64,000 bases of DNA from Pseudomonadota bacterium. Its GTDB lineage: Bacteria > Pseudomonadota > Gammaproteobacteria > Burkholderiales > Gallionellaceae. Positions 4,045-9,394 of this stretch are shown here, piece after piece. Numbering within the stretch: position 1 is the first letter of the stretch; each line of letters opens with the position of its first letter. A program made the position numbers and the translations under genes. The notes below the pieces were generated by a model. The model had not been told where the DNA came from. It did no database searches and worked only from the letters and a program-made list of their open reading frames with translations. The stretch covers positions 32,500 through 96,499 of the forward strand of contig JAJZTF010000012.1 in the NCBI GenBank assembly GCA_021821945.1, given 5' to 3'.

Positions 4045-5850
4045 CTAGAATTCGAGCCTGGTCTGGTCGGTGCCGGGATGGTAAAGCCTCACCGCATTGC
4101 GGCCGCTGCGCTTTGCATCATACATCGCGAAGTCCGCGTTCTTGAGCAGCGTATCCTCGTCCAGGCCGTGTTCGGGGTACATGGAAACGCCGATGCTGCA
4201 GGAGATGGACAGTTTTCCGGCCGGGGAATCAAAAGGCTGGCAGAGCATGTGACGTATCTTGTCGGCCACGATGGCTGCCTGCTGCTCTGATTCCACGGAG
4301 GGCAGGAGCACGATGAATTCATCCCCGCCAAGACGCGATACCGTGTCCGATTCGCGTATGGAGTCATGAATCCGTTTTGCGGCCTCCATCAGAAGCAGGT
4401 CGCCTATGGCATGGCCGTGAATGTCGTTGATCGGTTTGAATTCGTCGAGATCGATGAACATCAGCGATACGTGCGATTTCTCGCGCCTTGCCGAAGCCAG
4501 CGCCTGGGCGATTCTGTCGCTTAGCAGCTGGCGGTTGGGCAGGCCGGTCAATGCATCGTGCTTGGCGAGCCTCGTGAGCGCATCGTTCGCATCCTGCAGT
4601 TGCCGCGTGCGCTCCTCTATCTTGTCTTCCAGTGTGGCATTGATTTCATTGATTTCCGCTATCTTCTGGTGGATGGCGTTGTTCATGCTGATGAAGCTTC
4701 CCGTGAGTTCGCCCAGTTCGTCGCCGCGATGTTCGCGCATCAGGTCGAGCTCCTGGCCTAGCGTCTGTTTTCCGCTTGCGACATCCTTGAAGATTTTGCT
4801 GAGCAAGGTAAGCGGGCGGGATATGGAATTGGCCAGATACCAGGCAAGCGGGAACACGATCAGCAGGCTTGCCAGGGAAATCATGAAAAGGATGCGCACC
4901 ATCTCGAGTATGTTGCCGTGGACGGTTGCGTCGGACTGCAGCGCCGCGATCGTGCCGACGAGATGATCGCCGGTGTAGAGCGGGATCAGGATCTGCTGGA
5001 AACGCTCATCGCCTATCGATATCGTGTTGGAGGCGGATGAGCTTCTGCTCGCGCCTGTCCAGTCGGGTTTCCGGTAGGCGGGCAGGTTGCCGCTGCTGTA
5101 GCCGCTTGCCGTGAAAAGATTGATCCTGATGTCGGTCAGGCGGCCGATGTAGTCTACGAAATCGCGATCGAGCGACTGCACCATCTCGATCGTGCCGAGC
5201 CGTCCGGTTTGCGTATTTCCGGAGGCGGGGTCCAGGGTTTCTCCCATGATAGGGACGATGTCCTTTATGGCAAGCGAATTCCCGACGACCGCATATTGCA
5301 CGCCGTCAGGCTGTGCCGGATTCAGTTTCATGCTCAGGCCGGGAATGCTGTCTGTCTTTTGCAGATCCTTCTGGATCAGTTCCTCACCTGTCTTCACCGG
5401 CGAGGCCAGGATATGAGACCTGTCGACAAACCCTGCAAGATTGCTTTTAAAGGATGAGAAGGCGAGCAGATTGCCCTTTCCGTCATAGATCGCGATTTGC
5501 GTGAGCTTGGCCACCCTGCCTATCCTGTTGATGTCCGTGACCAGTTGCTGGTAGGTGTTGAACAGGATGTCGCGGTTCGTGTCCAGCTCGGCGTACTGTC
5601 CGAGATACCAGATCGTCGAACCTAGATTCTTCTGGTCAGCGAGCTGCTTCGATGCATCCATCATCATGACCTTGCGGTCGTTCAGGTTGTCCGTGATGAT
5701 CTTTCTGGCCCTTTCCAGCAGCGCCCTTGATTGGTCGTGGTATTGTCGGCTGATCACGACGGATACCGCGATCATGGAGGTGGATGTCATCACGAGGCTG
5801 ATCAGGAATGCGCCCAGGAGCAGTTTGTATTTGAGGGGCGGAAATTTCAT
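4045..5850 (-). CDS. membrane-bound diguanylate cyclase (periplasmic sensor, HAMP-like, GGDEF)
   Basis: N-terminal TM, large extracytoplasmic region, second TM plus HAMP-like segment, SRLGGDEFIVLLPS active site with upstream RESD (RxxD I-site spaced 5 residues from GGDEF). Confidence 0.9.
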   Translation of the reverse strand: MKFPPLKYKLLLGAFLISLVMTSTSMIAVSVVISRQYHDQSRALLERARKIITDNLNDRKVMMMDASKQLADQKNLGSTIWYLGQYAELDTNRDILFNTYQQLVTDINRIGRVAKLTQIAIYDGKGNLLAFSSFKSNLAGFVDRSHILASPVKTGEELIQKDLQKTDSIPGLSMKLNPAQPDGVQYAVVGNSLAIKDIVPIMGETLDPASGNTQTGRLGTIEMVQSLDRDFVDYIGRLTDIRINLFTASGYSSGNLPAYRKPDWTGASRSSSASNTISIGDERFQQILIPLYTGDHLVGTIAALQSDATVHGNILEMVRILFMISLASLLIVFPLAWYLANSISRPLTLLSKIFKDVASGKQTLGQELDLMREHRGDELGELTGSFISMNNAIHQKIAEINEINATLEDKIEERTRQLQDANDALTRLAKHDALTGLPNRQLLSDRIAQALASARREKSHVSLMFIDLDEFKPINDIHGHAIGDLLLMEAAKRIHDSIRESDTVSRLGGDEFIVLLPSVESEQQAAIVADKIRHMLCQPFDSPAGKLSISCSIGVSMYPEHGLDEDTLLKNADFAMYDAKRSGRNAVRLYHPGTDQTRLEF

Positions 5851-6968
5851 TGCCTGTCCGGATGGAAGGAGAGCACGGGATCGTAATGCGCCGGTGCGAT
5901 GGAGCTTTCGAAATCGTAGGTGGCAAGGTTTTTCCGATCGAGCAGGCCGAGCCTGACCAGGATGGTGTCAGGCAGTTTGGGGCCCCTGCCTTCGAGGTAA
6001 TTCACTGCGGCATCGGTGACTATGCGCGCCTGGCTCACGCCCTTTGTATCGGCCGCCGCCTTGATGTACCCCTTCCGGATCTGGTCGGCGATTTCCCTCG
6101 TGAGATCATATGCGACGATGCTGACCCTGTTCTCGAGCCCAGCCATCCTGACCGGCAAGACTGCCGCAGGCGCGCAGCCGGTGCAGCCCAGGATGTAATC
6201 AAGCTTCTTCCCGTGCTCTGCAAGCACCTGGCCGGCCAGCCTGGATTGTTCGACGAGGTCGCTGTCTCCATAAAGGATGCTCACGATCCTGACCTTGATC
6301 GGTGCGCGATTGGCGGCTTCCTGGCTTCCCTCCACCTCACCCTTCACCCAGCCGGCATCGGCAGGACCCGGGAGCAGGGCGACGTTCACCGACTTCAAGC
6401 CGCGCCTCGTTGCGTCCCTGATCACCCATTGCATCGCGGTGCTTCCCATGCCCTTCAGCGATGAAGTCACCTTGAGGGTCAGCTTGTCGCTGGTGCTGTC
6501 GTTGGCGAGCTCAAAAACAGGGATGCCCCGTGCCCGGGCGCGGGCTATGGACGAATTGTTGGCGGTATGGCTGATCGGCGAGATGACGATCGCATCGTAT
6601 TTCTTCGCGATGGCCAGATCCATGGCGTGCAGCTGGCCAATCAGGTCGTCGTATCCGTCGGATGGCAGGATGTCGACCGAGATGCCGAGCCTCCTTGCCT
6701 CGCTGATCACCCCGTAATCGCATCCGACCCAGTAGGGATCCTTGAGGTGCGGGAAGAGGAATGCAATTTTCCATGGCTTGCTTGCCGGAGCCGCCATCGG
6801 GAATTTTTCTTCGATCGCCCTATCCCTGGCGAGCGCTTCGTCCGCCGATTTATAGCTTCCGGGAGGGGAATAAATCGCGGTGACCGGTATCGGGTCAAAT
6901 CCAAATGCGGGAGATGCCGCATTGAGCAGCACCGCGCAACAGATGATTTGTAAGTTCCTGACTGGCAT
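5847..6968 (-). CDS. TorT-like periplasmic substrate-binding protein
   Basis: Signal peptide; PBP1 fold motifs; WKIAFLFPHLKDPYWVGCDYGVISEA and C-terminal SSIAPAHYDPVLSF resemble E. coli TorT; 4-bp overlap with the downstream GGDEF gene. Confidence 0.8.
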   Translation of the reverse strand: MPVRNLQIICCAVLLNAASPAFGFDPIPVTAIYSPPGSYKSADEALARDRAIEEKFPMAAPASKPWKIAFLFPHLKDPYWVGCDYGVISEARRLGISVDILPSDGYDDLIGQLHAMDLAIAKKYDAIVISPISHTANNSSIARARARGIPVFELANDSTSDKLTLKVTSSLKGMGSTAMQWVIRDATRRGLKSVNVALLPGPADAGWVKGEVEGSQEAANRAPIKVRIVSILYGDSDLVEQSRLAGQVLAEHGKKLDYILGCTGCAPAAVLPVRMAGLENRVSIVAYDLTREIADQIRKGYIKAAADTKGVSQARIVTDAAVNYLEGRGPKLPDTILVRLGLLDRKNLATYDFESSIAPAHYDPVLSFHPDRQ

Positions 6969-8039: not shown

Positions 8040-8162
8040 GTTCCCGCCCGGGTGAGTCATGAAAGCGCGCGAATCGGATTGGCCGGCACACGCGCATGCC
8101 TTTCGCAGAGCGAAACTTATCACAAGCCTGGCGCCGTGTCTTGCGGCGAAAACGGCTCCGGT

Positions 8163-8191
8163 TTGATGAGGCCTCCCTAATCCGCTATAAT
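8163..8191 (+). promoter_or_regulatory. candidate sigma-70 promoter of carAB
   Basis: TTGATG-N17-TATAAT, 69 nt upstream of the GTG start. Confidence 0.65.
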
Positions 8192-8260
8192 GTGCAGCGA
8201 TCTTTGCGGGTTGAGCTCACGGTTCTTCCCGCTTCTTTATGTCTATCTTGGGAGCTTCTG

Positions 8261-9394
8261 GTGACGCAAACGAATCCTGCCATACTTGTGTTAGCCGATG
8301 GGACGGTGTTTCGTGGCGTGGCCATAGGCGCTGCCGGCAGCAGCGTGGGCGAAGTGGTCTTCAACACCGCGATGACGGGATATCAGGAGATACTCACAGA
8401 CCCTTCCTATTGCCGCCAGATCGTCACGCTGACCTATCCGCACATAGGCAATGTCGGCACGAACGGCGAGGATGTCGAATCCCGCCAGGTTTTCGCAAGC
8501 GGCCTTGTCATCCGCGATCATTCGCTTGTGATGAGCAGCTGGCGCGGGCAGAAGCCTCTTTCGGATTATCTCAGGGACAACAACGTGGTGGCGATCGCCG
8601 GCATAGACACGCGTCGTCTTACGCGCATATTGCGCGAAAAGGGTTCGCAAAACGGCTGCATCGCGACCGGAGAAAACGTGGAGGCGGCGCTCGAAGCCGC
8701 TCGCGGCTTTGCAGGGTTGGCCGGCATGGATCTGGCAAAGGAAGTGAGCTGCGACAGGCCCTATGAATGGGTTGAGACCGAGTGGAATCTCGGTTCCGGC
8801 TATGCGGCCCAGAAAGCTGCCGAATTCCATGTCGTGGCATACGACTTCGGCGTGAAGCGCAACATCCTGCGCATGCTTGCATCGCGCGGCTGCAGGATCA
8901 CCGTGGTGCCGGCGCAGACGCCGGCCAGGGAAGTGCTGGCAATGAAGCCTGATGGCATATTCCTCTCGAACGGCCCGGGAGATCCCGAGCCTTGCGATTA
9001 TGCGATCTCGGCGACCCGGGAGATATTGGCGACGGACATCCCGCTTTTCGGCATCTGTCTTGGTCATCAGATCATGGGGCTGGCGGTGGGCGCGAAGACG
9101 GTGAAGATGAAGTTCGGCCACCGCGGCGCAAACCATCCCGTGCAGGATCTGGCCAGCCGCCGCGTGATGATCACGAGCCAGAATCACGGCTTTGCGGTGG
9201 ATGCCGCGACATTGCCATCGCACGCGCGCGCAACGCATGTCTCGCTGTTCGACGGGACGCTTCAGGGTTTCGAGCTGGCAGACAAGCCCGCATTCTGTTT
9301 CCAGGGGCATCCCGAGGCGAGCCCCGGACCGCACGACGTGGACGGACTGTTCGATAAATTTGTTGAAAAGATGAAAGGAGCAGGTAGCCGGTAG
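8261..9394 (+). CDS. carA: carbamoyl-phosphate synthase small subunit
   Basis: GTG start ([19 protein letters not shown]); class I GATase motif [15 protein letters not shown]; adjacent carB. Confidence 0.95.

Follow-up and report, generated by a model that had tools for sequence, protein, structure and literature searches.

The gene pair and its products

We analysed a stretch of 64,000 nucleotides (the window) from a contig of a Gallionellaceae genome. A first-pass annotation had described two minus-strand genes overlapping by 4 bp, and reading of the sequence confirmed both ORFs and the overlap, an ATGA that holds the stop of the upstream gene and the start of the downstream one. The upstream gene encodes a periplasmic binding protein (PBP) and the downstream gene a membrane receptor. 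The features of the pair, with the evidence for each, were the following:

5847..6968, minus strand: class-I PBP, 373 aa, TorT-related (Peripla_BP_4); Pfam, NCBIfam and fold match
6897..6968, minus strand: putative signal peptide of the PBP, residues 1-23/24, MPVRNLQIICCAVLLNAASPAFG; read by eye
6720..6734, minus strand: PBP motif YWVGC, with Y79 and W80 at the cleft by homology, and C83; subfamily alignment
6174..6185, minus strand: PBP CxxC motif, C262-T-G-C265, a subfamily signature; alignment
5847..5850, minus strand: ATGA, the 4 bp shared by the PBP stop codon and the receptor start codon; read from the sequence
4045..5850, minus strand: membrane receptor of 601 aa, a predicted diguanylate cyclase by its GGDEF output; ORF, Pfam and motif reading
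5755..5823, minus strand: first transmembrane segment of the receptor, residues 10-32, LLLGAFLISLVMTSTSMIAVSVV; hydrophobic stretch
4915..5754, minus strand: extracytoplasmic sensor domain, a diverged dCache_3; profile-profile comparison, alpha/beta element order and weak Pfam matches in relatives
4828..4899, minus strand: second transmembrane segment, residues 318-341, VRILFMISLASLLIVFPLAWYLAN; hydrophobic stretch
4684..4836, minus strand: HAMP linker, borderline at 24.4 bits against a cut-off of 25; Pfam
4096..4566, minus strand: GGDEF domain, 2.1e-49; Pfam
4345..4356, minus strand: RESD, a canonical RxxD product-inhibition site (I-site), residues 499-502; motif reading
4315..4329, minus strand: GGDEF active-site motif, residues 508-512; motif reading

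A Pfam scan matched the PBP to Peripla_BP_4 (PF13407, 1.1e-30, 107.5 bits against a gathering threshold of 35.1), and the only other Pfam family matched was Peripla_BP_1. With NCBIfam, the protein passed the lenient TorT model NF008185 (PRK10936; 211.9 bits, cut-off 200) and failed the strict equivalog TIGR02955 (155 bits, cut-off 310). Note that, with one model passed and half the cut-off reached in the other, automatic naming may label such proteins TorT. The folds nearest to the structure model of the PBP (pLDDT 82.8) were 4yhs (TM 0.81/0.90), whose annotation is that of a solute-binding protein of an ABC transporter, and TorT (3o1h/3o1i). In a profile alignment Y79, W80 and Y106 corresponded to aromatic residues of TorT, whereas Leu171 fell at Trp140 and Asp288 at a tyrosine, both residues of the presumed TMAO box of TorT.

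The alignment of the 78 subfamily members (see below) showed that Y79 and W80 were present in all of them and C83 in 71, the remaining 7 having Val or Ala at that position. Both cysteines of the CxxC motif were found in 78 of 78 members, a count that is biased toward CxxC, as this region was one of the two search keys in the scan of named genomes; the motif was also present in members from profile searches that lacked the key, wherever the stretch covered the site. CxxC and C83 are both absent from TorT and 4yhs. The aromatic and acidic positions of the cleft were as invariant as CxxC.

The receptor showed the two transmembrane segments, the GGDEF domain and the RESD I-site that had been annotated from the sequence at first reading. 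RESD lies five residues upstream of GGDEF, the canonical I-site spacing, and RxxD was conserved in 31 of 31 GGDEF-bearing receptors compared; with an intact GGDEF motif and this I-site, the protein is a predicted diguanylate cyclase. The HAMP linker recurred in 30 of 40 homologous receptors, matched there at E values of 0.01 or less.

The extracytoplasmic region had been called Cache-like rather than TorS-like, and this assignment held. Profile-profile comparison matched the sensor to dCache_3, as a double domain, with 95.3% probability (E 2.4e-8, 230 columns), using a dCache_3 profile made from members of that family within the same order; the CHASE4, GGDEF and PBP profiles gave 0.1-2.4%, and a CHASE4 identity of the sensor was rejected at 2.4%. 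The Pfam model dCache_3 (PF14827) had no match in the window receptor at E up to 1; weak dCache_3/CHASE4 matches were present in relatives, those to PF14827 in 3 of 40. A search of the PDB with the full receptor model returned GGDEF-containing structures only among the 50 matches listed, so the sensor was not classified that way and the profile-profile comparison served instead. Solved structures compared with the N-terminal part of the receptor gave only marginal, implausible sequence matches, and none by profile. The AlphaFold secondary structure of the sensor was alpha/beta and not all-helical. The sensor of TorS is all-helical (PMC8534201); a helical bundle of that type was ruled out here by the alpha/beta model together with the dCache_3 profile match. 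LuxQ, the receptor of the PBP LuxP, has a double PDC fold (PMC8534201), and the dCache_3-like receptor domain of the window belongs to this fold class.

No tor reductase genes had been noticed in the window, and no tor genes were found beside the pair. The best match to a BisC/TorA-family reductase in the whole genome, at 106 of 1018 bits, was nowhere near the cut-off. The PBP was the single Peripla_BP_4 protein of the genome and the receptor domain was likewise present in one copy; four BPD_transp_2 permease matches lay in two adjacent pairs away from the gene pair, and no permease adjoined the PBP. The genome, of 2.47 Mb, had 41 GGDEF matches, 40 of them over the cut-off, so that its c-di-GMP network is large for a genome of this size. 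No Rfam family was found in the window, and promoter and terminator scans gave results not usefully above chance.

Distribution of the pair and orphan binding proteins

Among the 150 genomes nearest to that of the window (its own included) 14 had a match, 12 of them close, and in the order as a whole 28 of 399 genomes matched, with a clear gap between the subfamily (>330 bits) and transporter-like PBPs (<210 bits). In a wider sample of the class all matches except the window's own scored <200 bits. The scan of named genomes yielded 78 loci in Gallionella, Sideroxydans, Zoogloea, Undibacterium, Silvimonas, Thiobacillus, Duganella and others, with three Methylobacter MAGs among the hosts; no relative was found in viral contigs.

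The pair had been expected to be conserved in relatives if it works as a unit, and it was. Forty-six loci, the window included, carry a full-length PBP and lie outside a clade of orphan PBPs described below; in 45 of these, sampled mostly from MAGs and with some near-duplicates, a homologous receptor gene followed directly downstream on the same strand, in many cases with the 4-bp overlap. The sole exception (L130) stops at a contig edge, and two extra loci with partial PBPs (L129 and L131) also have the receptor. Such recurrence indicates that the arrangement is not due to chance. No other neighbour recurred beside the pair beyond the close relatives of the window, so that the two genes are the unit, and no conserved neighbour of the pair offered a clue to the ligand. 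In relatives without the pair, no trace of the cassette was found within 1.5 kb of kup.

Two irregular arrangements were observed. At L022 (positions 8069-9352, genome G055) the PBP and receptor genes are separated by a long ORF on the plus strand that resembles a transposase by eye, apparently a naturally disrupted pair. In genome G010 (L019/L063) the receptor gene appears as two ORFs and is therefore frameshifted or misassembled.

The orphans, 32 PBPs with no receptor domain in the adjoining stretch, grouped in the tree as a single, modestly supported clade; they came mostly from Oxalobacteraceae (Duganella, Rugamonas and Pseudoduganella), with Andreprevotia and genome G207 in addition. The receptor domain was absent genome-wide from all 16 orphan genomes searched out of 32 (L085, L088, L091, L092, L093, L096, L099, L102, L103, L105, L106, L109, L117, L119, L122 and G207), which means that the PBP can serve without the receptor, at least there, and the clade counts against the reading of PBP and receptor as one unit. 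One Duganella orphan (L111:1666-15260) lies near genes for a TonB receptor, a tryptophan halogenase, an SBP_bac_3 protein, a LytTR regulator with His_kinase, an MFS transporter and a GH1 beta-glucosidase, and parts of this neighbourhood were common to up to 13 orphan loci. The beta-glucosidase, TonB receptor and tryptophan halogenase were considered as clues to the ligand and dropped, since other orphans lack them.

Exchangeable outputs, proposed mechanism and alternatives

Pfam and motif reading of 40 receptors revealed different outputs behind the same sensor: GGDEF only in 11, GGDEF-EAL in 20, a histidine kinase in 8 and a truncated protein in one (L073). The PBP tree requires at least 8 changes of output. 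Pairwise distances of the PBPs correlated with those of the receptor domains (r=0.87 for 39 pairs and 0.90 for 30 pairs), values uncorrected for the species tree and to which co-inheritance contributes, and hardly followed those of the GGDEF domains (r=0.25); this contrast is the informative part of the result. At L076 (positions 745-1494) the PBP and a kinase-type receptor are preceded by an ORF whose start resembles that of a response regulator, an arrangement that suggests a cassette in complete two-component form.

From the family and fold of the PBP, the secreted protein would bind a small-molecule ligand in the cleft between its lobes. The conservation of the pair and the correlated divergence suggest that either the occupied or the empty form would then dock on the adjoining receptor at its dCache_3-like domain in the periplasm. 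The docking state may pass through the second transmembrane segment to the HAMP linker, a coiled coil and the output module; passage of signals through HAMP is established for HAMP receptors generally. In the window, where the GGDEF domain has an intact motif and I-site, the input would set c-di-GMP synthesis, with probable product feedback at RESD, and this PBP/dCache front end would drive GGDEF-EAL or histidine kinase outputs in relatives.

The pair had previously been read as a TorT-like protein wired in one operon to a Cache receptor and to c-di-GMP synthesis. The link from PBP to receptor drew support from the conservation of the pair and the correlated divergence; its restriction to c-di-GMP did not stand, as relatives carry the same front end on GGDEF, PAS-GGDEF-EAL or histidine kinase modules. 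That reading is thus partly supported and, on present sequence comparisons, would have to be broadened: the pair would be an input cassette whose outputs can be exchanged, and not specifically a c-di-GMP relay. The name TorT-like marks a family resemblance and no more: the strict TorT model, a TorS-type sensor and the reductase were all missing.

It is very improbable that the PBP is a true TorT sensing TMAO, with TorS replaced by a diguanylate cyclase, even though it passed the lenient model, has TorT among its nearest solved folds and shares three aromatic residues with it. Against this count the failure in TIGR02955, the Leu171 and Asp288 substitutions in the presumed TMAO box, the lack of a BisC/TorA-family reductase over the cut-off in the genome, the sensor that is not a TorS helical bundle and the CxxC that TorT lacks. 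Given the strict model, the apparently incomplete TMAO box, the CxxC and the missing TMAO-type reductase, the PBP is, as far as sequence can tell, a relative of TorT and not a TorT. We give equally little credit to a role in transport, in which the PBP would be part of a transporter, or would work with one encoded at another site, and would adjoin the receptor gene only incidentally or secondarily. The nearest relatives outside the subfamily (L026 and L027) do adjoin ABC transporter genes, the ORFs that follow the PBP being recognisable by eye as ATPase and permease-type, and orphan PBPs persist without the receptor; but the receptor is paired in nearly every locus outside that clade, transporter genes do not recur next to the pair, and the only Peripla_BP_4 protein of the genome has no permease adjoining.

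A further possibility, which we consider unlikely, is that the cassette senses redox state or a thiophilic metal or metalloid via Cys262, Cys265 and Cys83 and not a conventional organic ligand. The invariance of CxxC, also in members retrieved without the motif key, and the frequency of C83 are in its favour, as are the probable location of CxxC in a cleft-lining loop (from alignment to sugar-binding relatives) and the fact that several hosts belong to genera of iron oxidisers (Gallionella and Sideroxydans). However, seven members have Val or Ala in place of C83, the aromatic and acidic positions of the cleft are equally invariant, as expected for an organic ligand, and CxxC may simply be a structural disulfide.

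We consider it highly probable that the PBP and the receptor form one bipartite sensory unit, in which the ligand of the PBP would act through docking on the dCache_3-like domain to govern an exchangeable output. More tentatively, the pair may represent a previously undescribed cassette, almost confined to betaproteobacteria as sampled, in which a CxxC class-I PBP would pass on a common and as yet unrecognised signal, either an organic ligand or the redox or metal state at CxxC, to one dCache_3-like domain plugged into cyclase, cyclase-phosphodiesterase or kinase outputs; we hold this fuller version possible rather than probable.

Comparison with known systems

Few PBP-controlled c-di-GMP enzymes appear to have been described, such as NspS-MbaA and ArtI-STM1987, in the part of the literature consulted, and judging by titles it contains no TorT-like PBP paired with a diguanylate cyclase. 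To these the cassette adds a PBP and a receptor that come from different families. With one input module and three kinds of output it also constitutes a natural domain-swap series, which makes "same signal, different response" testable, and it indicates that proteins named TorT by the lenient model need not be TMAO sensors.

TorT-TorS of E. coli and Vibrio shares with the window pair the PBP family Peripla_BP_4, TorT being a close solved fold. TorS is an all-helical kinase receptor, whereas that of the window is dCache_3-like with GGDEF; the window PBP has the added CxxC, and no TMAO-type reductase was found in its genome. In Salmonella, according to the portion consulted of a review (PMC8846402), the periplasmic binding protein ArtI is needed for signalling via the dCache diguanylate cyclase STM1987; ArtI binds arginine and is of another PBP type, and a two-gene cassette is not described in that portion. 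The RsbQ-PAS module (PMC3183031) is likewise a bipartite sensor of two adjacent genes with diverse outputs, including diguanylate cyclase and histidine kinase, although it combines a hydrolase with a PAS domain in place of a PBP with an extracytoplasmic Cache.

The cassette is like NspS-MbaA and LuxP-LuxQ in logic and is built from other families. NspS-MbaA, known from Vibrio cholerae and Sinorhizobium meliloti (PMC8967002, PMC9993111), also has overlapping PBP and receptor genes and a secreted PBP that controls a TM-periplasmic-TM-HAMP c-di-GMP enzyme, and its GGDEF-EAL output is that of 20 of the 40 receptors scanned here. NspS is a PotD-type polyamine PBP, in contrast to the TorT-related class-I protein of the window, and MbaA is a GGDEF-EAL protein without RxxD, in contrast to GGDEF alone with RESD. 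LuxP-LuxQ of Vibrio harveyi resembles the window pair in that a class-I PBP works together with a receptor of the double-PDC (dCache) type; LuxQ acts as a hybrid kinase for AI-2, whereas the window output is GGDEF, and the kinase-type relatives of the window receptor have the logic of LuxQ.
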